Origin: Candidatus Kapaibacterium sp.
GTDB taxonomy: Bacteria; Bacteroidota; Ignavibacteria; Kapaibacteriales; UBA2268
DNA: 64,000 nt
Direction of reading: 5' to 3'
NCBI GenBank assembly: GCA_013414795.1
Contig: CP058732.1
Coordinates: forward strand, 2,395,737-2,459,736
Program-made: the position numbers and the translations under genes
In this document: positions 27,323-52,000 of the stretch, one piece after another
Layout of the letters: every line of letters begins with the position of its first letter
Position numbering within the stretch: position 1 is the first letter of the stretch
The notes under the pieces: model-generated
Told to the model about the DNA's origin: nothing
What the model saw: only the letters and a program-made list of their open reading frames with translations
The model's database searches: none

Positions 27323-27719
27323 TTTTTGATTGATTTTTGTTGTTAACTATATTTTCAATGTCTTGAACAAAAGTAGCAACATTAATTGGTTTAGACATAT
27401 AACCATCGAAGCCAGCAGCAATCAATTTCGCCTCGTCGCCTGGTTGGGCCAAACCAGTAATAGCAATAATTGGTACTTGTTCCAAAGACTTGATTCCTCT
27501 GATTTTTTCAAGAAGTTCGGTACCATTCATATCGGGCAAAAGAACATCGGTTAAGACGCAATATGGTTTGTTATTTTGCAACCACTCGAGGGCAGAATTT
27601 GCATTGTCGAATTCAATTGCATCGTAACCATTTTTTCGCAAAATTGTAGCAAACAACTTGGATATCGATTTGTTATCCTCGACCAAACAGATTAATCCTT
27701 TTTGTTCTTCCATATTCAT
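27315..27719 (-). CDS. CheY-like single-domain response regulator
   Basis: The product is 134 residues, a receiver domain only. The acidic pair E14-D15, phospho-acceptor Asp58 in CVLTDVLLPDMNG, Thr88 in IIAITG and Lys110 in MSKPI are all present, so it should be phosphorylatable. No output domain is present, so it probably acts by protein contact. It is translated just before, and overlaps, the CHASE-PAS kinase gene, suggesting a pair. It begins 21 bases after the OmpA-protein gene, placing the pair at the end of the surface-protein run. A second in-frame ATG two codons in is an alternative start. Confidence 0.9.
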   Translation of the reverse strand: MNMEEQKGLICLVEDNKSISKLFATILRKNGYDAIEFDNANSALEWLQNNKPYCVLTDVLLPDMNGTELLEKIRGIKSLEQVPIIAITGLAQPGDEAKLIAAGFDGYMSKPINVATFVQDIENIVNNKNQSKNG

Positions 27720-29120: not shown

Positions 29121-29138
29121 TTCCTCCAACACTTGCTG

Positions 29139-31040: not shown

Positions 31041-32327
31041 CTATCTTATTAATTGTAATTTAACAATTGCCCTTGAAATTTCAACTGTTGGGTCGTCGAT
31101 TGGATAGGCAATAAAAACAACGTTGTACAAACCTTCCTGGGCATTGTAAGAGGCAAGGAAATCGATACTATGTTGTCCTTTGGGAGTATAAACCCCTTTA
31201 AGGAGACGGGTTACAATTCTTCCAGAAAAATCGTTTACAAAGGCGTCAAGAATTACATCATCCTCGACAATATAATCAATTCTTGTAGAAACACTAAATG
31301 GATTAGGTGAAGGAGTCGCTTTTGTGATAATAGAATTTGGAATACGTTCGCAATCATACGCAAGGTCAACGTAATTACCAAAGAAATCCCTGTAAAGCAA
31401 TTTATAGCAATATTCCAGTCCACGGTACGAAACCGAATCGAATTCGAAAGAATATGTCTTTCCAGTTGAAGAAGTTCCCAATCCCAAAAGTCCACGGTTT
31501 TGTGGGTCACTTCTCCTATAGTCAGCGACTGTGTCTGAATAATTTAAATTTGCTGGCTCGGGATTGTCTATTGTACGCAACGCTCGAACAACAATAAATC
31601 CATCAACATAGGCTTCGGAAGTAGTTTCCCAACTTAATCGAAGTTTTTTCAAACCAACATAATCGGCATCGAAATATTTCAATACTGTCTTTGGAGCGGG
31701 TCTATCGAAAGTTGAATAATTAACAAGAGAACGAAGTCCGTCGTCCATTTCAATATTGTCGTTCACCTGGTAGAGTAACATATTCGGTAAGAAAAGGCTG
31801 TCTCTATCTATTTTGTAGGCACAAGCCTGATAATAAATATAAGGTTCGAGCCAACGTAATTTTGTTGGGGGAACTGTTCCATCTTTTGTTTTTATTATAA
31901 ACTTCCCAATTTTGATACCATTGCCACCCAAAGGCAAAGCAACGCAATTAGAAAATTCCTCTGGACCAGCAATAGTAATACTAAATCTACCAGGAAGAAC
32001 ATTTGGTGTTACAATATAACTAACCGTAGGAAGAATTCCAGGAATTGCAATTATTGGCAAATCACTGGAGCCTGGAACAAGTTCTATGTGGTGCCTATCA
32101 GGTGAAACATTATAGTTTAAACTATCGAAAGCAAATTGAAATGTAGCATTAGCAAAGTATAGCCAACTATCGCTGGCTCTTTCCAAACGAAGTATGAATT
32201 CTAATTGGTCCCCTTTGGATAAAGAAATACTATCCAACACAGCATTTGCGAGTATCGTCCTCTGTGCATACATTTTATAAGAAACAAAAGACAAAACCAC
32301 CAACAAAAGAAGAGAAAGTTTTCTCAT
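31041..32327 (-). CDS. T9SS cargo with cohesin-like N-terminal domain
   Basis: The product is 428 residues. The start overlaps the stop of the upstream dockerin-ended gene by 4 bases (ATGA), indicating translational coupling. After a signal peptide (about 1-21) there is a beta-sandwich (about 22-160) whose pattern, KGDQLEFILRLERASDSWLY then TFQFAFDSLNYNV and a closing GKFIIKT, resembles cohesin-type domains. An Fn3-like domain follows (about 210-330, LRLSWETTSEAYVDGFIVVR). A T9SS type A sorting domain starts at about 335 (PSPNPFSVSTRIDYIV). The cohesin similarity is my reading of strand pattern, not a proven match. Confidence 0.75.
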   Translation of the reverse strand: MRKLSLLLLVVLSFVSYKMYAQRTILANAVLDSISLSKGDQLEFILRLERASDSWLYFANATFQFAFDSLNYNVSPDRHHIELVPGSSDLPIIAIPGILPTVSYIVTPNVLPGRFSITIAGPEEFSNCVALPLGGNGIKIGKFIIKTKDGTVPPTKLRWLEPYIYYQACAYKIDRDSLFLPNMLLYQVNDNIEMDDGLRSLVNYSTFDRPAPKTVLKYFDADYVGLKKLRLSWETTSEAYVDGFIVVRALRTIDNPEPANLNYSDTVADYRRSDPQNRGLLGLGTSSTGKTYSFEFDSVSYRGLEYCYKLLYRDFFGNYVDLAYDCERIPNSIITKATPSPNPFSVSTRIDYIVEDDVILDAFVNDFSGRIVTRLLKGVYTPKGQHSIDFLASYNAQEGLYNVVFIAYPIDDPTVEISRAIVKLQLIR

Positions 32328-34470: not shown

Positions 34471-36573
34471 TTATTGGCAGATACCAATTTCGAGAATGCT
34501 CTTGTTCATAATAGAACCGTTGTTGGTAAGTTGCAAAGTACCGAGAACTGGTGTAAATTGTCCACTTGGTCGGATCCAAATACCATTTAAGCCAGTCGCA
34601 GAACCACTATCACCGTCCCCAGTATTAGCATTTGTATTTAGGTTATAAATACCAGGAGAAGAGAAGCCAGTAACTGGCACCAAGCGAGTACGGAAGATCC
34701 TTTCCCCTGTACCCATCGTTTGGTCTTGGTTACCAATCACCAATGTCGCACCAGAAACATTTGCGATTGTTATACTATTCGCAGCTGCACCAGCATCACC
34801 ATTAATGCTTCCATCCACTTCGTCAGCTGTCCAGGCACTGCCACCGAACACCGCCTGGTCGATACCAGTCCAAACAACGTGGCGAATTTCGACATCATCA
34901 TTAGCAGTTGGAACATAACCAACATCCCAGGTTCCCGGGTTTGTCCATCGTCCATTGGTAATAGAAACAATAACAAGTGGTGTTGCAGTTAATACGATGT
35001 TGGAACCATCGGATAATTCATAGACTGAACCACCACCGGCAGATGCAATGAGATTAATACCTGAACCACTACCGCCACCGTAGTCAACATATTTTGGTGC
35101 ACTTGAAACGTTTCGAGTGTAAGTTGCACCACCTCGGACAAGTTTCTGGTGGTTTGCAGTTGAACTATAACCTTCTGCGAAACGCAATAAGCTATCATTA
35201 GCATTGTATGTAGCGTCTTTATCACTATCTTCGTAGTACAATCGCAATGCACTAATAGTTCCAGTGCCACTAAAGTTCGCAGTGATGGAACGCTTAATAT
35301 CGGTAGAATTGCTGAAGTTATTAAGATTTGTTGGGGTTGTTTGTTGACGAACATCAAGTTGGAACCAAGTTGGAACAGATGAGAAAGTTACTTGGGTATT
35401 TGCGTTATTAAATGTATACGCAGTGCCGGCTGTCATATTTTGCCAGCGGAATTTACCACGAACTTCTACATTACCCGTGTAGGTCGCAGAACCGGTTCCG
35501 TTAGTATTCAACATGGTAAGAATGTAATCATTTGTACCGGGAGCCATATCAACTTCCTGCGAAACTGTTAGGTTGTTACATACATTAACATTCCCCCCGG
35601 CAGTTTTTGCTCCAGTTCCTTCGAGGAACAAGTTACCATAACTTGCAAAGTTGGCACCATTGCCAAGAATTGTTTGTGCACCACCAGAATAATGGAAGTT
35701 CGAGGCGCAATTCATATCAATCGTTCCACCACTTTGAGTAAACGAACCAGTTAAATAAACTGTAGTACCGGAAGCAGTTTGGAAGGTTCCATTATTGTTG
35801 GCAAAGTTAGTAAATGTAACATTACCAGCACCAGAATTCACATAAACGCCACCGCCAGCACCAGAAGCACTATTTGTAAAGTCAGCAGAACTTGTAAAAG
35901 TACCAGAACCATTAAAGTTCCAAGTACCATTATTTGTAATATTTGCAGAAGCAGTGCTCGCTTGAGTATTGTTTAAGTTAAACGTACCATTATTAGTCAT
36001 TGCACCGCTCGTGTTATCAAGAGTAAATTGGTAGGAAACACTTGCAGTTGTTCCAGAACCTACTTCCTTTGTCGAGCCACCGGTTAACACTAATGCATAA
36101 TAACCAGTTCCATTGGAAGTGTTTTCGCCAGCAATCACTTGATTGCCAGTAGTTCCGTTATAAGTAACTGTTACTGAATTAGTTGTGTAGTCACGATTTC
36201 CGCCTTGAGGATTGTAACTTCCGGCGATGTAAACATCTTCAAGGAATGTCTTCACTCCGGTTCCATTAGTACCGAGATTGGTATAATAAGTTGGTTGGTA
36301 CGCACCACCGGTATACAATCCTCCAACGTTCATATTGTTGTCGCAGTACCAAATAACAGTTCCCGGAACTGGATTAGAGGCTGTTCCGTAGGGTGCAGTT
36401 CCATCGAACTTACCACCACTTGAACGCATACGAATCGTCCCACCACCAGTACCAACTTGATAGGTACCGCCAGTGTTATTAGTGAAATTTTGAGCAAGAA
36501 TTTCGGAAAAACCAAACGCAAAGATAAGGAACAAGGCTAAAAGGTAGCCAAATAAGTGTTGTTTGCGAGACAT
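34471..36573 (-). CDS. Gly/Asn/Thr-rich repetitive surface protein sharing modules with the giant protein
   Basis: The ATG at 36571-36573 is chosen for its GGAGG site 6 bases upstream and signal peptide (SRKQHLFGYLLALFLIFAFG); an in-frame start 16 codons earlier lacks these. The product is 700 residues. The N-terminus after cleavage (NFTNNTGGTYQ, then GGTIRMR) resembles the dockerin-ended neighbour. The middle has short beta-helix-like repeats such as NNGTFNLNN, NNGTWNFNGSGTFTSS. Near 540-560 a TNGRWTNPGTWDVGYVPTAN module occurs, the same type found six times in the giant protein. The C-terminus NGSIMNKSILEIGICQ closely matches the giant protein's tail. No T9SS sorting domain is seen. Likely a secreted fibre or adhesin. 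Confidence 0.8.
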   Translation of the reverse strand: MSRKQHLFGYLLALFLIFAFGFSEILAQNFTNNTGGTYQVGTGGGTIRMRSSGGKFDGTAPYGTASNPVPGTVIWYCDNNMNVGGLYTGGAYQPTYYTNLGTNGTGVKTFLEDVYIAGSYNPQGGNRDYTTNSVTVTYNGTTGNQVIAGENTSNGTGYYALVLTGGSTKEVGSGTTASVSYQFTLDNTSGAMTNNGTFNLNNTQASTASANITNNGTWNFNGSGTFTSSADFTNSASGAGGGVYVNSGAGNVTFTNFANNNGTFQTASGTTVYLTGSFTQSGGTIDMNCASNFHYSGGAQTILGNGANFASYGNLFLEGTGAKTAGGNVNVCNNLTVSQEVDMAPGTNDYILTMLNTNGTGSATYTGNVEVRGKFRWQNMTAGTAYTFNNANTQVTFSSVPTWFQLDVRQQTTPTNLNNFSNSTDIKRSITANFSGTGTISALRLYYEDSDKDATYNANDSLLRFAEGYSSTANHQKLVRGGATYTRNVSSAPKYVDYGGGSGSGINLIASAGGGSVYELSDGSNIVLTATPLVIVSITNGRWTNPGTWDVGYVPTANDDVEIRHVVWTGIDQAVFGGSAWTADEVDGSINGDAGAAANSITIANVSGATLVIGNQDQTMGTGERIFRTRLVPVTGFSSPGIYNLNTNANTGDGDSGSATGLNGIWIRPSGQFTPVLGTLQLTNNGSIMNKSILEIGICQ

Positions 36574-36689
36574 TTTTGCCTCCAAATTAGTTCGACATAA
36601 GTTCTTTTTTGTTCTATTCATATAAACTCCAATTAGTTGAACAAAATTAATTTAAACAAATAAAATATTCATAAGTATAATTACCTAAA

Positions 36690-39600
36690 TTATGGACAAT
36701 TTCCAATTTCAATAACACCTTCGTTTAATATTGATGCATTGTTAATTACACTGCCTCGAACTGAAATAGCATCATTTCCGACATTGTTATGCAATGTAAC
36801 ACCAGAGTTTATCAACAAATCACCACGAATCAGTAACTGAGAATTTGCAAACTTTGTGCCAGAATTGGATAGCCACACAGTTCCCAAACCACCAGTGTTA
36901 GTTATGAAGTTCTGAGTAAGATTTGTTGGTAAAGTTGTAAACACTTGGTTGCCTCCATTGAAGTCAATTATACTGTTTGTATTTATTACATAATTTGAGT
37001 AGTTATTTATTGTGGTTGCAAGATTATTGGTTCCTCCAACTCGCAAAATCCCGTTTGCAGCAAGTTCAAAAGTTCCAAGACTTCCAATGGTCGCATTCAT
37101 TGAATACGACTGCAAATCAAGTGTACCATTCAAAATCCGCAAGTCGTTTTGCACAGTGATATTTTTGTCTATCGTAACAACGTTGTTTGGATAAGAACCG
37201 GAATTGTCAACGATAAACGAGAATACAGTCGAAGGCAAGCCATTTCCAATCGCTTGATTTCCACTTCCATTGTATACATAGATTGCATTTGTACTATAAT
37301 TGCGTGTTAAATTCGTCTCAATGTTTCCAAGGCTCGACCCAACAGTTGTTATTCCGTTTGGAGAACCAATTTTCAAAGTCGAAAAGTCGGACAACGTGAA
37401 GTAGTCACCATTTAAGACATTAATACCAAGATTTAATGTGCCAGTATTTGACATACCAGTACCGACAGAAATCCCAACTCCATTAGGATTAACGAAGGGA
37501 TTCGAAATGTCAAGTGTGATTTCGTGGTTGCCAACACCGTTGTTACCACCACCAATTACAACAGAATCCCTTTCAGCATTGGGGAAGAGCCCAGTACCAG
37601 CAATTGGTCCGCTATGTGTTGGTGACCAAGTCCAGGAGTTATCGCTTGTCCAAAGACCAGACTGACGGGAGTAGAAAATACGTCGGAAAGCCGCTTCGTT
37701 TCCAATAGTCCAATCACCGTAAAAGGCAGTGTAGGAAAAATTAGCACTGGTTTCGAAAGTATTCGCCGATGTATTGATGGAAGAGGGGTTGAATGGGAAG
37801 GACCAGGAACCACCTGGGGTTTCGAAAGGTGGACGCCAACGTCCAATTTTAGTAAATTCCGCTTCATTTCCAGCAACATCATTGTCATTGTAATAGAACG
37901 TCCACTTTCCATTAATGGTTGCTGTAACGCTATCGATAGTCCAATATCTTTTCAAATAAGAAGCAGCAGTACTTGGCGAAAAACCTATATGTCCATCAGT
38001 TTGAACCGTACTTTGCCCGTAAGAAGTTCGAACACCGACCGTACCAGTAACCCCAGAACCACCAGCATCAAACACTGCGGGCGCATAGTATGTGTTTGAA
38101 CCGACGGGGAACGAATAGGATTGACCAGTCGTAACAGCACGTATCAACAACCCACTATTGTAAGAAGTTCGAACGTAGCGGTTGCTTCCGAAGTTTAGAA
38201 TTGCAGTGGGCGAGGAGTTGGAAATTTTCAAGTTCACTCCATCGAGCAAAGTAATATACGTATTTGGATTTGCAAAATTCAATGTTCCCGAAACAAATGT
38301 ATGTTGAGTTGAAGGATTATTAATAGACGGGCGAGTAATGTTTAAATTTCCCTGGTCTATAACAAGATTATTGAATCTAACTCCAGAACGGTTTTTCAGA
38401 ATCAAATACTTATCATTGGAACCAGAAAACGTTACTGTTGCGGACGTGGGTTCGAATTTGCCTTCGGTTCCATTGCTATCAAGAATCATAACACTGTACA
38501 AAGTCAGATTACGGCTTCCAGCGTTAAATGTGCCTCGTTTTACCAAGAGAGTATCGGCAATTTTAAGTGCAGGTGCACCAGCGTAGTTTGAAAGATAAAC
38601 ATTGCTGTTCGATGTGTTTGAATTTTCAATAATCAAAGTTTTAATTGAATCGGGCAAGCCAAGACCAGTATTTAAAGCAGAAACGCTACTATTGTAATAA
38701 TACCTTGATACACCATAATTGCGAATACTTGTTTGAACAGCACCAATGTTTCCATCGACAACTCTTGCAATTCCATATTGATTTTGTATTCCCAATGTGC
38801 AACTATCTTCCAATATAAATTTCTGTCCAGAAAGATATCCAAGTGTACCATTAATTAACAAAGTACCGGGAAGGTTGTTGACGCTATCTTTTTCAACATA
38901 AACACTCATAACATTCGGAGAAAATCCATCGGGTAATATTACAGTTTTGTTATTACCAATTCTAACAATGTCTGTTGTTTGATTTGGTATACGAGTTGGA
39001 ACATTATCAACATAATAACTTGTCAAAGACCAAGTATTTGGATCGTTCCAGTAACCATTATTCCTACTCCAGAAAGTAATTCCCAAAGGCAAGCCAGCAG
39101 TGAAATCACCAAATAAATTAATGCCAGTAGCGTACAATGTTGTATCTGTTTTAACCGGAGTTAAAAATCTGGTCCAGGTTCCAGTGCCCGGACAAGGTGT
39201 AGGCGGGTCGGGGCAAGGCGGATTGTAGTTGAACACATCAAAGTTGTTCAAATTGCTACCAGGTTTGAAATCATTTGGATTGAGAAATTGCAATTTCAAA
39301 TTGAAAGTATTACCAGAAGCAAGCGCAAAACCGTTTGTAGTAACCTTCCAATATCGAATTAAGGTTTTTGATGTATCGATTAGAGCATTGAACAGATAGG
39401 GATGTTGGTAGTTGAATGCAACAACTCCTACAAGCCCGGGCGTATTTCCCGACCCAGTTGTTTCGAACCAAACTGGGCGATAACTATCTATCGAGTCTGC
39501 ACCAACAGCAAAGAATACATTTACGGCGCTACTGCCAACGTATCGATACAACCTACCGTTAATATGGCCTTTCCCATTGCGAACAATGCTTGGATTGCTA

Positions 39601-42600
39601 CCTGTAATTGGACTTAACTCCACATACCTGCCGCTGACTATTGGTGCATCAATAAATGAATTGTTGTTATTCGAAAATTCCAATATATTCCTGATCAACA
39701 AGTTAGAAGAACCGGTGGGAGCAAGTACAACTTTACCGCTGCTTTTATTTAGACGCAAATTGTAAACTTCGATTGAGGATGAGTTGGAGAATAGAGTTTG
39801 ATTATTTGCACCAAAGAGTTCAATTTGCCAAGGATTGGTTGTAGGTCCAGGAGGAACACCAATGAAATTACCATAATTATTAAGGTTACCGGCAAGTTTT
39901 ACAGTGTTACCATCGAGATTGAATATATGATTTGCATCGATTGTCCAATTTCCATTGATTGTAAAAGTCTGTTCAGCAACTTTTGTAGTAACATTATTGG
40001 AAGGATTATTTGCGAAATGTAAATCATTGACAGCAATAGTACCTCCAATTTTGATTGTAGTTCCTGTTGGTGTCAAGGTAGAATCGCCGGATTGAATCAC
40101 TCCTCCGACCATACCCGCCCCATTTTGGGCATTTATTCGCAAATCGAATGCATAAGGTGATGTACCCAAAGCATTTGCTACTATTATCCTTCCGCCGTAC
40201 ATATTGAAAGTTGAACCAGCGTTGGTTATATCGAAACCGAAGCCATTAGATGGATAAGTGCCCATAGAAACAGTGGTAACTTTAACCTCGCCGAGTGGAT
40301 TCAATGTGAAATCCACAGTGGAATTGGCAGCTGCTTTTGTAAAGTTTTTGGCTATCCAAAGTAACCCAGTGTCGATTCGTACGGTGGTTCCAGTATTATA
40401 AATTAAACTACCAAAAACACTGCTATACAGATAGGGCTCTCCAACGTAAAGAGTTCCATTTTGGATATGTATTCTTGTATTCGCATTGGTAGTAATACTC
40501 GAACGACTACTTATTCTTCCCTTCAAAATTGTGATTCCCGAATTCTGTCCAAGATTAATTGGAAAAACATCCAATCCAGAAATATAAAGAGTATTAGTTG
40601 GACCAGTGTTTTGCACCAATATTCCCTGGTTTATTTCAAAATAATGTTTCGCAGAACTATTACTACTTGTACATAAACCACTAGATTCGATTATTAGAGA
40701 ATCTGCCAACCCTCCCGATTTTTCAAGCACAACACTTCTGAACGAAGCCCAAGGTCCATTCCCTGTAATTTTTGAATTACCAGTTCCGGTGAATTTTAAC
40801 ACTACATAATCGCTGTCCAAAGTTGAATATTGTGGGAAGAGGTGGATACCAAAAGGACCACCGGCGTTATTAATCAAATTACGAGTTATGATTAATGTAT
40901 CAACCTTCTTGCGAAGAATTGAAGTTGAATAACCGGAAGTTGAAATTCGAACAGCCTCGTTGTCGAGGAACAACTGCCTTGTCTGCAAAACCTTGTTATT
41001 TCTCGTTGAGTCGAATCTTAATTCGCCGGGTGGGGGGTTTGGATTGGTTCCTCCAATTCGAATCGAATCGACAAGAGCCCTTGCAGCATCAAAGTATATC
41101 GTATGTCCATCTATGTTAACTGTATCATCATCATACAATTGTCCGGGGTAATAAGATGCTGCTGGACCATTATGCTTTAAAACTGGATCATTCGACCAAT
41201 TTAATCTATCCGACCATTTACCTGTTGATCGGGAATAGAACACTCGACCGTTGAAATAAGTTAGCGGATGGCCAGCAGTATAATCTCCATAAATCTTGCT
41301 ACCATTGTATGTTGTATCGTTGGAAATTTGAATTCGATATCCAGCCGGAATAGTACTTATCGTTGGATTCAATCCTAAGTTTATTTCCCAACCAGAAGAA
41401 CTTTGGTATCTTCCAGGAATATATTTTGAAAAATCACCGACGGTATCAACCCACGAGAAATCAAATTGATAAGAATTTGAAGTAACATTTGTGATACCAG
41501 TGCCTTCTAAAATCCAATATTTCTTTAATATAAATTCATTTAATCGGTTTGGGTGCTTTGCGTTTCTTAACCTAACCCTAAGATTAGAGTTTGAAAAATT
41601 ACCCGTAAAAGAGATATTTGCTTGGTTGAAAACTGTATCGATTCCATAAGGAAAGACGAAACTCCTTGTAGCGTTGGTTCCGTCGGCAAAATATTTCCTA
41701 ATTGAGCCACTATTGGAATTTCCTGATACTCGGATCATTTTACTTTTAGAAAAGCCAGCGCCAGAATAAGTCAAATTCCCGGTGGTTGCAAAATTCAAAG
41801 TAATATTATCCGCTAAATCAATAATGTTCGATGAATCAAGCGAGAATGTGTTGTTGACAGTAACATCGGTGGTAATAGATATTGTATCTCCAGCAGGTTT
41901 CCTTGCATATACATTGTTGAATGTAATTGATTGACTGCCTCGAATACTTGATTTACCAGCATTTTGGAAAACGACCGAACCCGTTCCAGCATTGAATCCG
42001 TTCGAAGTGTCATTTACAAAATCTCCGTATAAATTGATGTTGTTGGCTTGTGCTTGAAGTTGACCACTTCGAATTCTTACAGAATCCAAAACAGTAATTG
42101 TTTTACCAAGTTGAACTATACTTCCATTCCTTGGGGAATGTACTTCAAAAGAACGCAAAATATTTGGCAAACCGTTTCCAGTAACTTGGGTTATAGTAGG
42201 ATTTATATTAACAATATCTATGGTGTATTCTTCGAACTCACCAGTCCCATTATCAGTTGGACCAAAATTCTGATTGTTCTCTCTCATCCCAACACGCATA
42301 TGCGTAGAACCAGGCAATGTACCAGCAGGTACAGTAAATGAAGCAGTATTAAACAATGTGTTAGAATTAGATGTCATATCTACAACCAACTCGCCAGCAT
42401 CTGTGTAACTACCGTTCCGATTATAGTCAATCCAAACCCTATAGCGACGGTTACCAACTGCACTTGATGGGTCGATTTGCAAATAATATGCTTGTCCAGC
42501 TTGTAAAACAGCTTTTTTATGGGTATAAATATTTATACATTGTGAAGCGCGCGTCAAAGTATCCAGGGTAACATTATCCATTAAAACTTGGCCATCAGAG

Positions 42601-45600
42601 GAACGTCGAACAACTACACGTTCAATGTAATATGTAGAACCATTCCTATCTGGAATTGGGTTTAGGTAACGAGCGACATCACTAGTATAGCCTTCTGCTG
42701 TATAAACTATTGAAATACTATCTGAATACGATGGAAGAGTTCCAGGATAAAGGTTAATATTGCCAGAATTTCCCGTCGTAATGCCAGAATTTGAGCCAAC
42801 AATGATTTTGCCACCATTGTATACCTTAAACGAATTACCTCGAAGCACGTGATAGTTCAGATCGAGTATTCCCGAATCGCGAACAACAACGGAGGGACCA
42901 GCCAAGGCATTCAATTCAAGAATCCAAGTCAAAGTATTTGTCCCAATGTTAGCATCGAGTCGGACTTTTCTTCCCCTTCCAATTATTACGTTATCATATT
43001 GTCTGCGTGGGAAGCCATAAATAATTCGATTTCTACCACCAGTTGTATCGCTTGCAGCAAGGTTGGTTGGATTTAAAGTATCGTCGAGCGAAACTGTTGA
43101 CCAAGTCGAAGGATCGGTCCAATCCCCATCGCGTATACTATAAAAGTTATAGAAACGAGCAATAGTATTTTGATTGCCGGAAACAAAATCACCCAAAAGT
43201 AAATCATTACCAATATATTCAGTCCATCCGAAGGCAGTGTTAACATTTGCAACTTGAACATATGCAAGTCCAGAGGAAAGAGCACCGGAGTAGGTAAAGC
43301 TGGGTGATAATCCAGATTGACGGGTGTCCTGACACCCAAAAGTTCCGTCGTTACTTACTGTGGAATTAGGATACAACGGTTGCCAAATAACCGAATCGGT
43401 CCACCTTCTTATATAAGTCAAGTCGACACAGCCCCAATAGTCGACATAAGCGTCATCTCCTGGAACATTGAAGTATGCACGAATAGTTACGTTTCTATTT
43501 CCACGCTGGAAGGTGGATCCTTGGGGCAATGTAAGTCGCCACCATTTTGGTCCAATCAATCGACTTGGTGCAATTGGCGGGTTATATGTCAAATCCATAT
43601 ATGGATGGGTTCCAGGAAAGACTTTTACTCCTAAATAACCAGCAGTGCCATTATTACTTCCAGAGGCAAAATCCAAATAAAATGGCGAGTATAACAAACT
43701 ATCACCAACTTCAAAAGTAACAGCAGGGGCATCGCCAGAAGGTATGTACTTTCTTAATTCGCCATTGACCCAACCGCGTGTGTTACTTGCATTCGAAACT
43801 GTTGCATTCTGAGCGATAATAACATATGCACCGGAATATGTTCTCGCGTCAATAAGTGATTTATTTGTTCCAGTATTAGAGAAAGTAAGATTATTATTTA
43901 TTCTAATCGCCGAGTTTGAAGCGAGCACAAAATTTCCTGTGCCATTATTTTTAGCCAAGGTAAGATTATAAAAATCAAAAGGATTATTATCTAAATTGGT
44001 CAAGGTATCGCTTTGAAGTCCCGAAATGGTTATTGTGGTGGTATTGGGATTAAAAGTTGTTCCAGAGTTTCTTCGAATGTTTCCATTTATCGTTATATTC
44101 GCAGTCAAAGACATAGAACCATTCTGCAGATACAAACTATCCGATATAGCCAAACTTCTTTGGAAGGTTAATGTACCACCAGTTTTATTAACTGTAAGAG
44201 TTGCTATTGTAGAAGGCAAAGCCTCGTTGGCTTGGGTTTGGTTTTGATTCCCAGAATAAACAAAATGCCCTCTGTTATGATTCAAATAGTTGTAATTCCG
44301 AGTTGAAGTTTGGACACTTCCCAATGTACCAGTGGCACGGAATCCGTCAGAATTTTCTGTGATTAACCGTCCGTCTTTTGCAAGCCGGAATTCCCCCGTT
44401 CCATTTATAACATAAGTCCCAAAATTCAAGGTTCCGCTTGAATCAACTTGCACCCAGCCAGTGTTAGAACCTACAGAATTCACTGTAACATTTTGATTCA
44501 AGGTGATAGTATTTCCGTTGCCAATGAATGCTCTAAAGTTGCTTGTGTTTTGACCTGGATATTCAAAGGCGGCGGGACCACCATAACCAACCGTAGACCA
44601 GTTGGATGCAGTTGTCCAGTTTCCATTCGCACGTGTATAGAAAGTCAACACATCGGGTTCGCCAACAATAAAAGTTCCAAAAGCATCAAGACTATCAAAA
44701 CGCGTTGAATTTGTTGTTCGGTTTCCTACCAAAGGAATAGCACCGTAGTAATACGGTCCAATCCAATTAGAGCCAGATCTCAATCTTACATCGAAAATAT
44801 CGGGATTTGCGCCATTACGCAAGTCTCCATTGGGAGCAGCAGAACCAATAAATGTAAATGTTGCATTATACTTACGATTAGAACCCAGAGCAAAGCTACT
44901 CCCAGAAGGTATAGAAATAGAATATTGACGTGCAACGTGTTTAGAGGGGCTCATCGAACTTCCAGCGGGGAGGATACTCGTCGGCGGGTCGGTATTCCAA
45001 CTGATTGGCGATGAAGATGTGTTGATTGTATCACTTAAAACAGCAAGTAAGCCCGCAGTTCCGCCACTACCAAATATTTCAACTGTTACTGGGGTATACC
45101 GACTTCCGAATCCCACTTCGAAAATTTGCGATGTGGTACCATTTGCAACAACTTTACGCAATTCCGCATCAACGTAACCACCACCTGGTCGGTTTAAATT
45201 TCCAAGCACTGTTACGAATCGAAAATTGGTGCCCGAACGACCACGAATTTTTCCAAGAGAAAGAGTCAAGTCATTGTTTACTATTATACCATTTCCGCTG
45301 AACCCGACTCCGATTATATCTACATCTGAACCATTCTTAACAATTAAATTGTAAAAACTCTCATTCCCCGAAGTCTTCGAAATGGATTGAGTTGAAGAAC
45401 CATTAAAGGAAACAGTTGATGTTCCGTAGGTAAATGTCCCACCTTTATTTATCCAATTGCCATAGATAGACAAATAATTATTGACCATTTCGAAGGTAGC
45501 TCCTGTATCTATCGTCAAGTTTCCAAGTATCTTAATATCATCCAAAGGTTTAATAGTTCCGCTACCGGCAATAATAACATTGTTGAATGGATTATCTGTC

Positions 45601-48600
45601 GTATCACGGGAAGTAATCGTATTTGTTGTCAATGCGCTAGTATTGCGAAATATAACAGTACCAGTTCCAGGTTGAAATACAGAACCATTGGCATTAACCC
45701 AATCACCTTGTACTTCAAGGTTGAAGTTATTTGCATTGAAAGTTGCACCGTTGTCAATTGTTAAGTCATTCAAAACTTTGAAGGTTGGGGTACCTGTTGC
45801 TGAAAGTGATTTCGTACCAGCACTGTCAAGAACCAAGTTGTAATATTCAAGATAAACAACACTGTCGGATGGCGAAGCAGGTTTGAAAGGTATATCTTGA
45901 GTACCACCGTTTTTGCAGAATCGGACAGTCGAACCATTTGTAAAAAACCCGTAAGAGTTATTAGCAAAATTTAATTGTGAAATATCCAAAGAGTTATAAA
46001 TTCTTATTTCACCCGATGAAGCGAAGGTAACATTTCCAGAACGTGGATTTCCAGAGATTTTCAAATCATAATATCGATTGACTGCTGGGGAAGAGCCAGA
46101 ACTTGGAATGGTAACATTTCCAGTTCCGTCAAAAGTTACACGCCCAGCGGAAAAAGTTGGTGGATTGTAATTTAATGGGAAATTCTGGCGTACAATCAGT
46201 TCGCCCCCACGCATAATTAATGTACGCCCAGATGATTGCCCATTGGCATTATATGCCCCTAAATCCAATACACCATTATTTATCACAAGCGAATCTGTAA
46301 TTAGAAAAGATTTGGACAAAGTTACAGATTGACCAGCAGTTTTGTCAACAACTAAACCACGAATTACGTTGGGTATACCATCACCGGTAACTTGTGTCAA
46401 CGAACCAGTAAAAACATAAACCGCTGAACTTGACAAATCTCGAACTGCTGTTCTAACACACCCAAGGTTGCTTGGAGTAGCGGATATACCATCCTGGTGG
46501 GAGATGTATATCTTTGTGTTTTGTTCAAGCCTAAATGTATCGCCTTGAACTATATAATTTCCAGTAAATTCCAATTTACCCGGTTGACGACCGCCAGTTC
46601 CATCCTCGACCGAAATCAAATTCAATTCTGGTACATCCTGAGTGATAGTAACTTTATTGTCCTGAATACGAACTCGGTGGGTCTTTTTGCTTGGAACTTT
46701 GGTGGAAGCAGGTCCACCGAAATTATAATTGGACCAGGTCGAGGGTGTATTAAAATCACCATCAGCACGCGAAAAGAAATATAAAATCGCAACATCCTGT
46801 TCACCTGCAAGCCAATCTCCTTCAATATCATCAACTTGAAGTGAATAAAACAAATGGTTGTTAAAATCTACATAATTATTTAGCCCTGGATTTATATGCC
46901 AATAGCCGCTAGGGTCGTTGTACGAGGGAGAATACCATAGCACAACGTAAGAACCTTCGTTTCCTTGAACTTCACCAACATTATAATAAAACCTAACCGA
47001 AGCACCGTCGTTATTAATAGTTACATCATTTTTATCAACCACCCAATACTTTGTCAGCGATCTGTTTGACAACTCAACTTCTGGGTGTTCCAATGGGACA
47101 GGCTTAACAGAAACATAGGGATTAGTCCCAAAAGTAGCACCATTTAAATTAAAAGTAATGGTCGCGGGAGAATAATACCCTGGGGTTCCTACTGGAAAAT
47201 GTAAATACAATGGCAAACTTGCGCTATTTGAAATTTCTCTTATCAATCGTGCACCCGCAAGGGGATTGCTTCCGCTACCCGAATTTATTATGTATTTATT
47301 TGAATTAAAAGTAATCACATCTTCGCTGGTACCATTATCGGAATAAATGTGACCGTTGGGACCAATAGTTAAATCATTGCTATTCAAATCAACAAGTGTG
47401 TTTGAAAGAAGACGCAGATTGCCATCAACACGAGTTGCTATATCAATCTCGACTTGGCCGCCAGTTTTGTTTACAGTAAGATTATTGAACTTGGTCGTTT
47501 GTGTTCCACCAATTGTTTGGGTTGATGAACCATTTAAAATTACAGTTCCAGTACCAGGAACAAAACCATCAGAAGAAGCACAATTGTTAGTCCAATTACC
47601 GCCAAGCGTGATATTCAAATTATTTGCGTTTAGCTTACCTGTTCCAGAGCCAGCAAATGTTATGTCATTAAGACAAGTTAAATTGTTCGAAATAAGCCTT
47701 GCTATTGGGTCGTTTGTTCCAAGAACTTCAAAATTGTAGACTGGGACTGTACTATTAATGTCGAAAGTTTGACCAGTGGTGGACGAATTTATTCGCAACA
47801 AGCCACCAGTTACACTATAAGTGCTGGCAAGTACAACATAATCCCCAACTGTATTGTTGGCAGTTCTTTGCAATACAATTGTTCCATTGCTCCAAGTGAA
47901 ACTGGAACCAGAAGCACTGACATCGAATAAACCGACAGAAGTTTCGGTACTGTTCGACCCGGTGCCAACGTAAATATTTCCACCTGAAAGAGAAAAATCA
48001 AGCAAATTTGTAGCATATGTTTGCGGAGAAAGTCTTGTATAGATATTTAATTGACCACCACGTACATCCAAACGTGATTTCGAAGGTGGCGTGTTGTCAT
48101 AAATTATGGAACTTTGTCCGGTGGAACCAACATTAAAAGTTCCTTGCGATAGCACCAAATCGCCGCGTAGATAAAGATTGCCTTGAAGCGGTTGAGCATT
48201 AACTGTAACATTTGGATTGTCCAACCAAAAACCACTTTCTTTTTGGATGAAAATGTTACCAGTTCCAGTTTGTGGTTTTAAGAATGTATTTGAAAGCGTG
48301 AAATTTCCAGTTATTTTAAAGAAGCCTGTATCAAGAGTTAAAAAGCCGTTAGGTGCAGTAAATGTTCTCTTGAAGAATACCGTGTCGGACTTACTAAACT
48401 TACGCAGAATAACCTCGAAGAGATCAGCAGTGCCAGTTCCATCAAAATCCGCATTACCAGAATTTATGAAAAATGCAAATACTTTTCCATTTGTCCCATT
48501 AAAATCAAGCGTACCATTTACAAGTAAATCTCCACCAAATTTAACGGTATCCGAAGCAGAAGGAAGATTGTCAGTTACATCGAAAACGCCATTGGGAGAA

Positions 48601-49046
48601 ATTGTTGCGTCGCCATAAATTAAAAGTCTAACAAAATTGGAATTTCCAAGCCTAAAAGTTCCCTGCTGAATGAGTAAATCATTTTGAACATTTGCATTGT
48701 TATCTAACAAAACAATTTGTAAGGTAGAGTTTTTATTAATAGTTAAATTATAAAAATTAGTTAACGATGTTCCACCAATTGTAGAATTGGCTCCCCCGAC
48801 AAAAATTACAAACCCATTTCCCGGATTGAACGAACCACCATTGTTTGTCCAATTTCCAGTGATGTAAATTGTACCAGTGCCACTTTGGGTTAAGTTGCTA
48901 CCATTCGATAGAGTCAAATCAGTATTAACTTGAATTACAGAATTATTGGATAAATAAACAATAGCATTTTGATTTACAAAAAATTGAGGATGAACAGGGA
49001 TTATGCCAATGAATAAAATAGTCAGCACAATCCAAATTGTTTTCAT
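36690..49046 (-). CDS. Giant (4118-aa) modular surface protein, adhesin-like
   Basis: The ATG at 49044-49046 has GAGGG 5 bases upstream and yields the signal peptide MKTIWIVLTILFIGIIPVHP; an in-frame start ten codons earlier is weaker. The 12.4-kb frame is unbroken. It is built from about six super-repeats: beta-helix-like stalk segments (GTGTVxFxG..Q.I.G....FYNL.I.K), then a domain with LRKY....F.VG....Y.PV, then a GxWxxPxTW....P...D.V.I module near residues 762, 1474, 1974, 2609, 3330 and 3795. A GEVED-type domain sits at about 2160-2285 (YRVWIDYNRNGSYTDAGELV). The C-terminus NASILNEGVIEIGNCP replaces the expected T9SS tail. The role as long surface fibre or adhesin is inference. Confidence 0.85.
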   Translation of the reverse strand: MKTIWIVLTILFIGIIPVHPQFFVNQNAIVYLSNNSVIQVNTDLTLSNGSNLTQSGTGTIYITGNWTNNGGSFNPGNGFVIFVGGANSTIGGTSLTNFYNLTINKNSTLQIVLLDNNANVQNDLLIQQGTFRLGNSNFVRLLIYGDATISPNGVFDVTDNLPSASDTVKFGGDLLVNGTLDFNGTNGKVFAFFINSGNADFDGTGTADLFEVILRKFSKSDTVFFKRTFTAPNGFLTLDTGFFKITGNFTLSNTFLKPQTGTGNIFIQKESGFWLDNPNVTVNAQPLQGNLYLRGDLVLSQGTFNVGSTGQSSIIYDNTPPSKSRLDVRGGQLNIYTRLSPQTYATNLLDFSLSGGNIYVGTGSNSTETSVGLFDVSASGSSFTWSNGTIVLQRTANNTVGDYVVLASTYSVTGGLLRINSSTTGQTFDINSTVPVYNFEVLGTNDPIARLISNNLTCLNDITFAGSGTGKLNANNLNITLGGNWTNNCASSDGFVPGTGTVILNGSSTQTIGGTQTTKFNNLTVNKTGGQVEIDIATRVDGNLRLLSNTLVDLNSNDLTIGPNGHIYSDNGTSEDVITFNSNKYIINSGSGSNPLAGARLIREISNSASLPLYLHFPVGTPGYYSPATITFNLNGATFGTNPYVSVKPVPLEHPEVELSNRSLTKYWVVDKNDVTINNDGASVRFYYNVGEVQGNEGSYVVLWYSPSYNDPSGYWHINPGLNNYVDFNNHLFYSLQVDDIEGDWLAGEQDVAILYFFSRADGDFNTPSTWSNYNFGGPASTKVPSKKTHRVRIQDNKVTITQDVPELNLISVEDGTGGRQPGKLEFTGNYIVQGDTFRLEQNTKIYISHQDGISATPSNLGCVRTAVRDLSSSAVYVFTGSLTQVTGDGIPNVIRGLVVDKTAGQSVTLSKSFLITDSLVINNGVLDLGAYNANGQSSGRTLIMRGGELIVRQNFPLNYNPPTFSAGRVTFDGTGNVTIPSSGSSPAVNRYYDLKISGNPRSGNVTFASSGEIRIYNSLDISQLNFANNSYGFFTNGSTVRFCKNGGTQDIPFKPASPSDSVVYLEYYNLVLDSAGTKSLSATGTPTFKVLNDLTIDNGATFNANNFNLEVQGDWVNANGSVFQPGTGTVIFRNTSALTTNTITSRDTTDNPFNNVIIAGSGTIKPLDDIKILGNLTIDTGATFEMVNNYLSIYGNWINKGGTFTYGTSTVSFNGSSTQSISKTSGNESFYNLIVKNGSDVDIIGVGFSGNGIIVNNDLTLSLGKIRGRSGTNFRFVTVLGNLNRPGGGYVDAELRKVVANGTTSQIFEVGFGSRYTPVTVEIFGSGGTAGLLAVLSDTINTSSSPISWNTDPPTSILPAGSSMSPSKHVARQYSISIPSGSSFALGSNRKYNATFTFIGSAAPNGDLRNGANPDIFDVRLRSGSNWIGPYYYGAIPLVGNRTTNSTRFDSLDAFGTFIVGEPDVLTFYTRANGNWTTASNWSTVGYGGPAAFEYPGQNTSNFRAFIGNGNTITLNQNVTVNSVGSNTGWVQVDSSGTLNFGTYVINGTGEFRLAKDGRLITENSDGFRATGTLGSVQTSTRNYNYLNHNRGHFVYSGNQNQTQANEALPSTIATLTVNKTGGTLTFQRSLAISDSLYLQNGSMSLTANITINGNIRRNSGTTFNPNTTTITISGLQSDTLTNLDNNPFDFYNLTLAKNNGTGNFVLASNSAIRINNNLTFSNTGTNKSLIDARTYSGAYVIIAQNATVSNASNTRGWVNGELRKYIPSGDAPAVTFEVGDSLLYSPFYLDFASGSNNGTAGYLGVKVFPGTHPYMDLTYNPPIAPSRLIGPKWWRLTLPQGSTFQRGNRNVTIRAYFNVPGDDAYVDYWGCVDLTYIRRWTDSVIWQPLYPNSTVSNDGTFGCQDTRQSGLSPSFTYSGALSSGLAYVQVANVNTAFGWTEYIGNDLLLGDFVSGNQNTIARFYNFYSIRDGDWTDPSTWSTVSLDDTLNPTNLAASDTTGGRNRIIYGFPRRQYDNVIIGRGRKVRLDANIGTNTLTWILELNALAGPSVVVRDSGILDLNYHVLRGNSFKVYNGGKIIVGSNSGITTGNSGNINLYPGTLPSYSDSISIVYTAEGYTSDVARYLNPIPDRNGSTYYIERVVVRRSSDGQVLMDNVTLDTLTRASQCINIYTHKKAVLQAGQAYYLQIDPSSAVGNRRYRVWIDYNRNGSYTDAGELVVDMTSNSNTLFNTASFTVPAGTLPGSTHMRVGMRENNQNFGPTDNGTGEFEEYTIDIVNINPTITQVTGNGLPNILRSFEVHSPRNGSIVQLGKTITVLDSVRIRSGQLQAQANNINLYGDFVNDTSNGFNAGTGSVVFQNAGKSSIRGSQSITFNNVYARKPAGDTISITTDVTVNNTFSLDSSNIIDLADNITLNFATTGNLTYSGAGFSKSKMIRVSGNSNSGSIRKYFADGTNATRSFVFPYGIDTVFNQANISFTGNFSNSNLRVRLRNAKHPNRLNEFILKKYWILEGTGITNVTSNSYQFDFSWVDTVGDFSKYIPGRYQSSSGWEINLGLNPTISTIPAGYRIQISNDTTYNGSKIYGDYTAGHPLTYFNGRVFYSRSTGKWSDRLNWSNDPVLKHNGPAASYYPGQLYDDDTVNIDGHTIYFDAARALVDSIRIGGTNPNPPPGELRFDSTRNNKVLQTRQLFLDNEAVRISTSGYSTSILRKKVDTLIITRNLINNAGGPFGIHLFPQYSTLDSDYVVLKFTGTGNSKITGNGPWASFRSVVLEKSGGLADSLIIESSGLCTSSNSSAKHYFEINQGILVQNTGPTNTLYISGLDVFPINLGQNSGITILKGRISSRSSITTNANTRIHIQNGTLYVGEPYLYSSVFGSLIYNTGTTVRIDTGLLWIAKNFTKAAANSTVDFTLNPLGEVKVTTVSMGTYPSNGFGFDITNAGSTFNMYGGRIIVANALGTSPYAFDLRINAQNGAGMVGGVIQSGDSTLTPTGTTIKIGGTIAVNDLHFANNPSNNVTTKVAEQTFTINGNWTIDANHIFNLDGNTVKLAGNLNNYGNFIGVPPGPTTNPWQIELFGANNQTLFSNSSSIEVYNLRLNKSSGKVVLAPTGSSNLLIRNILEFSNNNNSFIDAPIVSGRYVELSPITGSNPSIVRNGKGHINGRLYRYVGSSAVNVFFAVGADSIDSYRPVWFETTGSGNTPGLVGVVAFNYQHPYLFNALIDTSKTLIRYWKVTTNGFALASGNTFNLKLQFLNPNDFKPGSNLNNFDVFNYNPPCPDPPTPCPGTGTWTRFLTPVKTDTTLYATGINLFGDFTAGLPLGITFWSRNNGYWNDPNTWSLTSYYVDNVPTRIPNQTTDIVRIGNNKTVILPDGFSPNVMSVYVEKDSVNNLPGTLLINGTLGYLSGQKFILEDSCTLGIQNQYGIARVVDGNIGAVQTSIRNYGVSRYYYNSSVSALNTGLGLPDSIKTLIIENSNTSNSNVYLSNYAGAPALKIADTLLVKRGTFNAGSRNLTLYSVMILDSNGTEGKFEPTSATVTFSGSNDKYLILKNRSGVRFNNLVIDQGNLNITRPSINNPSTQHTFVSGTLNFANPNTYITLLDGVNLKISNSSPTAILNFGSNRYVRTSYNSGLLIRAVTTGQSYSFPVGSNTYYAPAVFDAGGSGVTGTVGVRTSYGQSTVQTDGHIGFSPSTAASYLKRYWTIDSVTATINGKWTFYYNDNDVAGNEAEFTKIGRWRPPFETPGGSWSFPFNPSSINTSANTFETSANFSYTAFYGDWTIGNEAAFRRIFYSRQSGLWTSDNSWTWSPTHSGPIAGTGLFPNAERDSVVIGGGNNGVGNHEITLDISNPFVNPNGVGISVGTGMSNTGTLNLGINVLNGDYFTLSDFSTLKIGSPNGITTVGSSLGNIETNLTRNYSTNAIYVYNGSGNQAIGNGLPSTVFSFIVDNSGSYPNNVVTIDKNITVQNDLRILNGTLDLQSYSMNATIGSLGTFELAANGILRVGGTNNLATTINNYSNYVINTNSIIDFNGGNQVFTTLPTNLTQNFITNTGGLGTVWLSNSGTKFANSQLLIRGDLLINSGVTLHNNVGNDAISVRGSVINNASILNEGVIEIGNCP
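37625..46780 (-). repeat. Six GxWxxPxTW module copies inside the giant gene
   Basis: The copies lie near 46730-46780 (RADGDFNTPSTWS), 44590-44655 (RANGNWTTASNWS), 43100-43145 (IRDGDWTDPSTWS), 41195-41245 (RSTGKWSDRLNWS), 39030-39075 (RNNGYWNDPNTWS) and 37625-37680 (RQSGLWTSDNSWTWS). Spacing is 1.4-2.2 kb. Each is preceded by a F[TYWR]..VG-type domain and followed by a D-x-V-x-I strand and a GxGLPxxxxxL segment. A seventh copy is in the neighbouring gene near 34925-34965. Copies are diverged in DNA, so this is an old protein-level repeat, not a recent duplication. Confidence 0.75.
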
Positions 49047-49085
49047 CTTCACCCTCAAAAATCTATTCATTATCATAATCCATTC

Positions 49086-52000
49086 TTATTTTACTCTCAT
49101 AATCCAAACAACACTCATATTTTTGGGTCGAGTTTCGTTTGCAGTTCTTGGAGTGCCATTTGTTCCGTCGGAAATCGGATCCCCAATTGTAATGTTTGCA
49201 GGCGGTGCATAGTTACCAAGACTAATATCATAAGTATTATAAGCATATTCATATTTCAAGGCGCCGTCTGAATCGACGCTATGTCGATGCCCCTGGAATG
49301 CATCGTATTGTCCAGTGCCAGAAGTTGTCCCGCCACGCAAAAACATACCAGCCTTTTCGCTCAAACCTGGAGAGTCCGCCCCGTTCGGGTCGCCATTCAA
49401 ATTGGGAATAACTTGATTATGATAAGGACTTGCTGGATCGTTCAAAGTTTGCCCATTGCATTCAACCCAACCATAAGGTAAAGATGGAGTATTCGCAAAG
49501 TCTTTATGCCAAGCAATAATTGAACCAATTGGTGGAACTGGCTGGTAACTGCTTGTAACAACCCAAGTCGAACCATTGCTTATCAATTCAATCGATTCCT
49601 TTTGGCGCAAAACTAACGAGGAGGAACCTTCAATCGAACCACTTATAGTAACATTACCGGTGTTTATATTCTTGATTATGTAAGTCCTTCCAACATTGGA
49701 AGTAGATGGATTTGGCAAAGTTATTGTAATATTTGAACTTGCATTTGCCAACACGGTATGGTAAGTTTCATCTAAGGTTATATTCGAGGTTACAACTGAA
49801 ACCTTTGTTGAAATTGAACCTTCTACAGAAAGAGTCGAGTTGGGGTTAGTTGTTCCGACACCTACATTTCCCGAACCAGTAACAATAACTCTATCGGTAT
49901 TGTTTGTTTTGATTTTAAATCCGACGTTATCTGTTGTACCTATGAAGTTAGTTGACTCGTTTAAACCAGAATTACCAGTGGTTTTCCAAGCAACCGAGGC
50001 GACCTGGCTTGGAAGATTGTCCTGGGTAATTAAAGAGCTCCAAGTTGAACCGTTGTACACTTTAAGATTATTGTTGGTGTTGTCGTAGAAAACCGCACCT
50101 TTGGAAATTACATTTGGCGTTGTGGATTGCGGTTGGAAATAAATTACTTTGGGGTCGATATTGCCAGTTACTACCAAATCGCCGTCAATGTAAACATCTC
50201 CATTGGTTTGAACAAGTATTGAATCGTCGACAATAGTGGTTGTACCGATACCAAGTTTACCATTTGCCAACAATCTCATTCTTTCTGTGCCATTCGTTTG
50301 GAAAATCAAAGGCAAGTTTTCGTTCTGACGAATTATTGCATTGCCAGAATTGTCGATTCCAATATCGAAACCGTCGTTTACACCAGTGCCAGTCGTAGAA
50401 CCTGCGGTGAACTTGTGGTAAGTAGCGGTTGCGTTTCCTTGGTCTTGGTGCAACAAAGTCGCTGGGTTTGTAAAATTGAATCCAATTCTATTATTCGACA
50501 CATCTTGATAAATCAAATTCGTAGCCTCCCAACCACCGTTATATCTTAGAGTCTGCCCAGTTGTTCCTGTTGGTAAAGTTGGTATAGTTTGCCAGGAAAG
50601 ATTTCCGCTGGCATCCGTCTGCAAAAAGGCATTTCCAGTTGGCAGACTTGTTGGTAAATAATAACTTATTGTAGTTGTTTGGGAATTACTTGTTCTAAAA
50701 TAGTTCAAACCGCTACCTGAATTGACCAAACCAAGAGAATTTTGAATAACAAGAGCATTTTCCGAATTGCTCCATTGCAAGCGGTTGTCATAAGTCAAAG
50801 ATGAACCACCACTCCAAATTGCAATATATGGTTGGGCACCATTTCCAGAAACAGTACCGGGGAAAGTCTGACCAGTAGCAAAATCAATTGTGCCAGTCAT
50901 TGTCCCACCAGAAAGGGGCAAATAATTGCTGGCAGTAATATTATCGGGTATATCAGCATCAGTTAAAGAACGAAATGTTGGTGTTCCGGTCCCCGTTGTT
51001 GGCCCAGCAAAAACTGTGTTTGCACTTTGTGGATTCCAAGAGACCGAGAATGTTCCACTATTTGTAATCGGCGAGCCGGAAACTGAAAATTCAGTTGGCA
51101 TCGACAACCCAACGCTACTTACACTTCCAACATTACCTGGCTCCCACTGACTTGAAGTATTATTCCATATATATGCTTGTCCATTCGCCGGTGGGGTATT
51201 TGCAACATTTCTACCTTGTATTTTCACAACAGTCGGATTTGGATATGTTCCATTCAAATCTCCTCCAGCAGCATCCCCATCGAACACAATGCTTGAAATT
51301 GCTGCGGTATATACTGGATCCGTCTCTAAACTTGAAGCAGAAGTCCATTGCGGTGGGTTACCAGCCCCTTGTGAAACCAGAACTTGCCCAGAACTGCCCG
51401 CAGAACCATTTGGCATTAACGCCCCAGTAAACAAGACATTTCCAGATATATGGAGTTTTTCGCTTGGGGTTGATGTTCCCACGCCGAGCCGTTGATTTCC
51501 ATTATCCCACCATAAACTGTTGTCACCTGAAATACTATTCGTGCCATTCCAAAAAGCCACTTGGTTTGCACTACCGGAGCCAGTTACCTCGCTATTAGCA
51601 TTAGCGTCGGAAATTGTTATCGAACCAGCACCATTTGTGATTTGAATGCCAGTACCAGCAGTAATTGTATTCAACGAGAAGCCAATTCCATTTCCAATAA
51701 GAATTTGTCCAGAACCCGGAGTTGTACTATTCCCTGTGCCACCCTTCGAAATTGGCAAAACGCCCGAAACCTCTGCGGTTGCTAAATCGACTGCGTCAGT
51801 TGTTGACCCAGTACCAATAAATTTATTCGCTTCTATGTTGCCACCTCCAAGAGTAATACTTGCACCACTACCAACGACCATAGTAGCGGTCGTATTTGTG
51901 CCAGAGGCGATTAAATTAAATGGAACTGTTGCAACGGAAGAAACAACCGCAACCCATTGAGTTCCATTATAATACTCGAATCGTTGATTATCAAGATTAT

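Follow-up and report, generated by a model that had tools for sequence, protein, structure and literature searches.

Two adjacent genes of a Candidatus Kapaibacterium genome encode exported proteins that differ greatly in length and end on closely similar residues, and the locus raises the question of why otherwise diverged proteins should have their extreme C-terminus in common. The window, i.e., the whole stretch of DNA that was analyzed, comprises 64,000 nucleotides (contig CP058732.1, positions 2,395,737 to 2,459,736). The shorter protein, SMALL (ORF 34471-36621, minus strand), ends NGSIMNKSILEIGICQ, and the longer one, LARGE (ORF 36690-49076, minus strand), ends NASILNEGVIEIGNCP. The tail was thus found on both proteins where an earlier sequence-only reading had placed it, with the same 8 of 16 residues identical between the two C-terminal 16-mers, and LARGE is indeed huge and tail-bearing, but it measures 4,128 aa from its ATG and not 4,118. 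The two 16-residue ends reached a BLOSUM62 score of 48, compared with a maximum of 36 among 200,000 composition-matched random pairs and with at most 25 for the other 16-mers of either protein. Exactly two copies of the tail were detected in the source genome, using either a strict DNA pattern or an HMM at E ≤ 1.

The gene row and its neighbours

In the window, a fibre-like protein is followed by LM (here LARGE), SMALL, DOC, CTDX, a WD40 protein and an OmpA-family protein (Table 1), the scan for WD40 and OmpA domains having covered the window only. The order LM, SMALL, DOC, CTDX was contiguous in 15 of 20 fetched loci, including L058, where a regulator gene is interposed; as for the others, L057 is cut, the row is split across two contigs (L050/L051, G035), and L059 and L060 have a lone LM. 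Fibre-like proteins of similar look were seen by eye upstream of LM in several relatives. Among relatives, LM spans approximately 105-8,200 aa, SMALL approximately 740 aa and DOC approximately 700 aa. No family was assigned to SMALL by Pfam, NCBIfam or PHROGs. LARGE, its short counterpart MINI (see below), SMALL and DOC all begin with a hydrophobic stretch, mostly ending AQ or SQ, that was read by eye as a Sec-type signal.

Table 1. Features of the gene row and their positions in the window
Feature	Position	Strand	Description
Upstream fibre-like protein	49086..52223	-	1,045 aa; weak phage-tail-collar similarity
LARGE (LM)	36690..49076	-	4,128 aa; Sec-type signal; beta-helix-like repeats; putative exit tail at C-terminus
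GEVED domain within LARGE, aa 2212-2286	42219..42443	-	Pfam PF20009, E 6e-13
LARGE tail (putative exit)	36693..36770	-	last 26 aa, ...SVRGSVINNASILNEGVIEIGNCP
SMALL	34471..36621	-	716 aa (700 aa from inner ATG at 36573); Sec-type signal; beta-helix
SMALL putative entry, mature N-terminus QNFTNNTGGTYQVGTGGGTIRM...	36388..36492	-	proposed LARGE-tail receptor (charge pattern, MINI-SMALL fusions)
SMALL tail (putative exit)	34474..34551	-	last 26 aa, ...LTNNGSIMNKSILEIGICQ
DOC	32324..34408	-	694 aa; Sec-type signal; beta-helix-like N-terminus; conserved EF-hand/dockerin-like end NLDGIITTRDLNFSINNR
DOC putative entry, mature N-terminus QGVTLDNTGGKINNLGTIRVRAGQVK	34238..34315	-	proposed SMALL-tail receptor (SMALL-DOC fusions, charge pattern)
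CTDX	31041..32327	-	428 aa; conserved neighbour; diverged T9SS-type-A-like end ...VKLQLIR
WD40 protein	29139..31031	-	terminal T9SS sorting-domain match sub-threshold, 24.5 bits vs cut-off 27 (G000:C1:2424881-2425105)
OmpA-family protein	27741..29132	-	PF00691, E 1.2e-16; peptidoglycan-binding-type C-terminal domain

The relatives that carry the row are probably Candidatus Kapabacteria: of 67 named loci with DOC relatives, 17 were labelled Kapabacteria or Kapaibacterium and 19 Ignavibacteria (or -ae, -ota), the rest having broader or other labels. Two contigs with the locus, L081 and L103, were named Desulfobulbaceae and Bradyrhizobiaceae and are probably mislabelled MAGs. The SMALL gene was detected in 95 of the 123 genomes of the order by a whole-family search, and in this material the order is represented almost only by metagenome assemblies.

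The end of DOC gave an EF-hand match below threshold in the relative L045 (E 0.0003). The CTDX copy of the window had no Pfam or NCBIfam match, and the one of L058 matched PF18962/TIGR04183 below threshold. In the window and in relatives the end of CTDX is conserved (FIAYPIDDPxVEISRAxVKLQLIR) and resembles a T9SS type A domain with an altered last loop; PF18962 misses the copy of the window. A regulator gene that looks LuxR-type by sequence lies upstream of SMALL in L072, L076, L078 and L112; in three of these loci it separates LM from SMALL. The window also encodes a CHASE-PAS histidine kinase and a response regulator (25139-27719) immediately downstream of its OmpA-family gene, and it further contains a complete serpin gene at 23864-25081 (PF00079, E 5e-114) and a Patatin-Omp85 fusion protein at 19050-21713.

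Conservation of the tail and its place at the chain end

Over 48 aligned tails the consensus was L-x-V-x(5)-N-x-G-x-I-x-N-x-G-x-I-E-I-G-x, then stop, with a core of N-x-G-x-I-x-N-x-G-x-I-E-[IV]-G followed by 1-3 residues. The Cys next to the end, previously described as invariant, proved to be restricted to the genus of the window and a few other genomes, most relatives ending EIGE, EIGQ, EIGN, EVGPP or similar without Cys; within the genus itself, two LARGE tails lack it (ending TEP in G001 and NQP in G002). Given its absence from most relatives, the Cys gives no support to an anchoring or cleavage signal. Altered SMALL ends were found in some relatives (...GGTLGIGQ in G027, G052 and L097; TLRVCD in G060; also in G031, L106, G042, L105 and L107). 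The remodelled tail of G027, G052 and L097 reads ...INDGC[LV]N[IV]GGTLGIGQ and retains the IGQ end, like the LARGE protein of the same genome (IEIGQ).

The tail was detected in 76 of the 123 genomes of the order at E ≤ 0.001, in 40 of these 76 at two or more places, and in 33 of 395 genomes of the phylum at E ≤ 0.01, 20 of which belong to the order. In the loci of the order viewed from the phylum scan, the tail was terminal in 16 of 17 cases, the exception (L152) being a fusion in G076 that is described below. No published account of the gene row or the tail was found among the matches listed (titles and abstract openings).

The proteins on which the tail is kept vary widely in length. In 18 aligned proteins, two of which are truncated where the locus begins, LARGE has 3,465-4,357 aa; the longest LM is an 8,223-aa frame in G104 with the tail present, and in families f2, f3 and f5 (22 genomes) LM is found as MINI, on frames of 128-202 aa (mature length approximately 105-130 residues where read), with the tail retained. 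A profile of the MINI N-terminus had its best match at the LARGE N-terminus in 13 of 18 proteins, and among the five misses three have no true start (G058, G060, G024), the others being G001 and G039. MINI looks as if only both ends of LARGE remained. Three LM records (L071, L180, L185) were SMALL fragments and were excluded. Extra MINI-like proteins with the tail (132-175 aa) were observed at G060:C64, G068:C85, G021:C11 and G016:C545, accompanying LARGE in G060 and G068, an LM fragment and SMALL in G016, and SMALL in G021 (no LARGE seen).

In order to see if the tail falls inside a domain that merely repeats, a possibility raised together with the first description of the tail, profiles of the two tails were crossed. 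The LM-tail HMM had its best match at the C-terminus in 33 of 49 SMALL proteins (elsewhere in 16), and the SMALL-tail HMM in 30 of 34 LM proteins with lengths up to 4,357 aa; the scores were low, with medians of 7.7 and 9.5 bits at the end vs. 0.5 and 0.6 inside. The cross-profiles thus pick C-termini despite the related internal rungs that fill the large proteins. These results bear on a simple alternative, namely that the tail is merely the last rung of a common repeat family, kept by descent and the needs of folding, with no partner. Ten of the 13 matches outside the order were viewed (G159, G176 and G368 were left out), and eight of them were similar N-x-G-x-I-x-N-x-G-x-I rungs inside beta-helix-like proteins, while the remaining two, L151 and L153, belong to the same protein class and likewise end on such a rung, as this alternative would have it. 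We nevertheless consider it improbable, given the end-specific cross-matching, the retention of the tail from MINI up to the 8,223-aa frame, and the charge pattern and fusions presented in the next section.

AlphaFold models of single chains gave a beta-helix both for SMALL (pLDDT 89.3, 42-sequence alignment) and for MINI (pLDDT 90.2, 13 sequences). The MINI model has an N-terminal helix at 2-16 and its last strands at 127-130, 134-136, 139-142 and 145-148, with the chain ending at 151; the last strands of SMALL are at 682-684, 688-690 and 693-696, with the chain ending at 700. In both models the tail is the last part-rung of an open beta-helix without a cap, as only one to three or four residues come after the tail strand and could not cover it. 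What stands from the sequence-only reading is therefore that proteins which have otherwise diverged share a conserved element specific to their ends, and that this element is tied to the beta-helix; a cap, like the anchoring or cleavage through Cys, is not retained.

Alternatively, the tail could be a sorting, export or anchoring signal for some outer-membrane machine (e.g., a non-canonical T9SS route) and for this reason be common to the two proteins, which appears unlikely to us. Its extreme C-terminal position, mostly 1-3 residues after the Gly, would suit such a signal, as would the presence of T9SS in these genomes and of a protein with a sub-threshold T9SS domain in the gene cluster. However, neither SMALL nor LARGE carries a known T9SS sorting domain, as had been noted before (0 Pfam/NCBIfam matches up to E 0.1, including PF18962/TIGR04183 and PF13585/TIGR04131), and no known CTD model matches either of them; in the source genome, PF18962 has 109 matches at E ≤ 0.001. 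The proposed check of whether the tail occurs only together with T9SS genes was at its ceiling and hence uninformative, as SprA_N was present in 119 of the order's 123 genomes, among them every one of the 47 that lack the tail. Tail-bearing and tail-less genomes are not told apart by SprA_N. The four genomes that lack a SprA_N match (G045, G014, G116 and G094, all draft assemblies) have the tail.

Charge pattern and natural fusions at the tail

The explanation that we consider likely is docking of the tail on the start of the protein encoded next, by which LM, SMALL and DOC would form a continuous beta-helix. The tail would be the exit end of an uncapped right-handed beta-helix and would stack edge to edge on the entry end (the mature N-terminus) of the next protein in the row, and LARGE or MINI, then SMALL, then DOC would thereby build a head-to-tail rod of one continuous beta-helix. 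In this docking model, the similarity of the two receptors, i.e., of the SMALL and DOC N-termini, would explain why LARGE and SMALL have a common tail. We infer the binding between separate proteins, as well as an assembly outside the cell and its order.

In counts based on regular expressions, not on alignment, and covering related genomes that were deduplicated by identical last 40 residues only, with shared ancestry ignored as in all counts given here, residue X of the tail motif I-X-I-G was acidic in 78 of 110 cases (41/53 LM and 37/57 SMALL). The X of the entry motif was basic in 69 of 102 starts (37/49 SMALL and 32/53 DOC), a count that covers only the starts found by script, omits L083, L085 and L125, and includes the SMALL start of G016, which begins inside the signal. 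LM starts, which would face no upstream partner, were basic in 0 of 28 cases (0/13 MINI and 0/15 LARGE, the latter out of 18, as the true start is missing in G058, G060 and G024). Motifs in the interior were acidic in 13.9% and basic in 10.5% of cases in LARGE (2,128 motifs), and acidic in 15.7% and basic in 5.4% in SMALL (868 motifs). As regular expressions and related genomes were used, the nominal p-values (approximately 1e-38 to 1e-39) overstate the pattern, and family f2 fits it poorly, with N, V, I, Q, M, A or R at X in its tails. The acidic bias of the tails, set against the interior of LARGE, speaks against a mere last rung.

The strongest sign for docking is that some relatives have the same proteins fused exactly at the tail. 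Each of the two predicted joins exists as a natural fusion, the one in another family than the other. The SMALL-DOC fusion was present in all 8 genomes of genus g33 (family f7), on frames of 1,448-1,550 aa, the shortest frame (1,216 aa, G101) being cut at its 5′ end. At the join, SMALL extends to position 707-710 of its 710-position profile, 3-7 residues follow, and DOC continues from position 28-34 of 688; the DOC signal peptide is absent and the DOC part begins at the mature start. In the eight junction pieces, aligned by eye, hydrophobic residues occupy the 0-based columns 1, 7, 13, 19, 25 and 31 in 75-100% of the 8 sequences (lag-6 autocorrelation 0.43), and with a hydrophobic residue every 6 positions across the join, the six-residue register of the helix continues over the former protein boundary. 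In 8/8 fusions the tail strand retains its acidic residue, and one 18-residue rung later an Arg is found in 5/8, the acidic exit strand and the entry strand lying one such rung apart. Seven fused starts inspected by eye retain the basic SMALL entry. The tail sequence has drifted in g33 (tail profiles score at most 13.9 bits, and G080 is not above noise), and its identity therefore rests on the SMALL profile reaching its end.

The other join, MINI to SMALL, was found in G102 and G076 (family f9), with LM-tail matches (16.7 and 11.3 bits) directly ahead of the SMALL start and a short linker that, by eye, interrupts the hexad register. Three f9 loci (L206, L209, L210) encode an 800-aa chimera of SMALL (profile 6-548) and DOC (462-688) without the SMALL end and the DOC start.

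Together, the charge pattern and the natural fusions favour docking onto the protein that follows, although adjacent genes can also fuse without any binding of their products. The location of the fusions at the tail is a further argument against a last rung kept without a partner. A sorting signal is in turn at odds with a SMALL tail that lies inside the chain, joined to DOC, in the 8 g33 genomes, where no further SMALL was found, and with a MINI tail that is internal in G102 and G076. In G035, the two tail genes are on different contigs, which is compatible with docking but not predicted by it. The altered SMALL ends of some relatives, the 16 of 49 SMALL proteins in which the LM-tail profile matched best away from the end, and the poor fit of family f2 to the charge pattern likewise weigh against docking.

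SMALL and LM tails of the same genome covary beyond the distance between SMALL bodies (partial r 0.35, 0/2,000 permutations, 33 pairs after L112 was dropped from 34). This fits a common type of partner but also a common reader, as expected of a sorting signal, and is not decisive. Both tails have Cys at like positions in G000, G039, G104 (ICDCY / VCNCD) and G008 (NNCG in both), and Cys in the LM tail and in the SMALL tail are associated (4/7 vs. 5/35, p 0.028, one of six tests). Such pairing could suggest a tail-to-tail contact between LM and SMALL, like that in bactofilin filaments, which would be disulphide-locked in some lineages, a possibility to which we give very little credence. Cys in SMALL starts and DOC starts are likewise associated (p 0.047), these p-values being uncorrected for ancestry or for the number of tests (six, and five more with other windows), with the SMALL start of L083, the DOC start of L085 and the row L125 (no DOC) left out. 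The pairing also has exceptions (G001, G002, G060 and others), and the fusions join a tail to a start. In addition, contact of like with like is disfavoured because both tails are mostly acidic.

Comparison with known systems and possible meaning

Bactofilins, which form cytoskeletal filaments, are cytoplasmic and not known to have a Sec signal. The MINI model is of equal size, both being right-handed triangular beta-helices of about 110 residues with open ends, and it superimposes on the bactofilins 6rib_A (Z 12.2, rmsd 1.9, 100/101 residues) and 2n3d (Z 11.4, rmsd 2.4). In contrast to bactofilins, the proteins described here have Sec-type signals, are different from each other, and would, as predicted, assemble head to tail in one set order, and a search of 6 MINI proteins up to E 10 gave no match to the Pfam bactofilin model (most weak matches being removed by the HMMER filters). 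End-to-end contact of beta-helices is already known from bactofilins, whose polymerisation in this way is described in PMC12448750.

Two-partner secretion (TPS) and filamentous haemagglutinin-like proteins are likewise very long exported right-handed beta-helices, and the TPS signal is N-terminal. TPS secretion domains were among the non-significant Foldseek matches of MINI (1rwr, Proteus mirabilis hemolysin A, E 0.27), and neither an autotransporter C-terminal barrel nor an N-terminal TPS domain was matched in SMALL or LARGE by Pfam or NCBIfam up to E 0.1. Neither model obtained a significant Foldseek E-value (best 0.074 and 0.17). The closest structural match of MINI was the C-terminal beta-helix of a Caldicellulosiruptor adhesin, or tapirin (4wa0; Z 14.3, rmsd 1.6, 115 residues; another such structure is 6n2b), which has the same fold but only 15% identity, and a common fold does not show a common function. 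Left-handed hexapeptide enzymes among the MINI matches (Z approximately 9-11, rmsd approximately 12) were set aside, as they appear to be of the wrong hand.

With the T9SS CTDs, the tail has in common a conserved extreme C-terminus on large exported proteins of Bacteroidota in genomes with T9SS. It is, however, only approximately 25 residues long and part of the beta-helix itself, compared with the 75 positions of PF18962. In PMC10202324, which describes CTD types A, B and C, types A and B each form a complete domain that takes up roughly the final 70-100 residues of the protein.

A secreted multi-protein beta-helix of fixed order, with exit and entry ends, was not found in the literature among the matches listed. 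We propose tentatively, as one possibility, that Kapabacteria build an extracellular heteropolymer in which secreted proteins are joined head to tail by a docking code, an acidic uncapped exit rung meeting a basic entry rung, into a seamless beta-helix, the length of which would be set by a first subunit of approximately 105-8,200 residues that keeps both ends. A role of the rod in adhesion is our guess, and it is equally a guess, from gene order, that CTDX and the WD40 protein may connect it with T9SS, and that the OmpA-family protein may connect it with the wall.

If the proposal is true, it cautions against taking every conserved C-terminus of exported proteins for a sorting signal. It also provides a simple rule for building one very long rod from separate secreted proteins, which could be read from the end sequences alone, and the docking code would be accessible with proteins of approximately 105-130 residues and could serve the construction of beta-helix fibres. 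For the order itself, it would be, if right, a first clue to the function of a gene row that is represented, through SMALL, in 95 of its 123 genomes.
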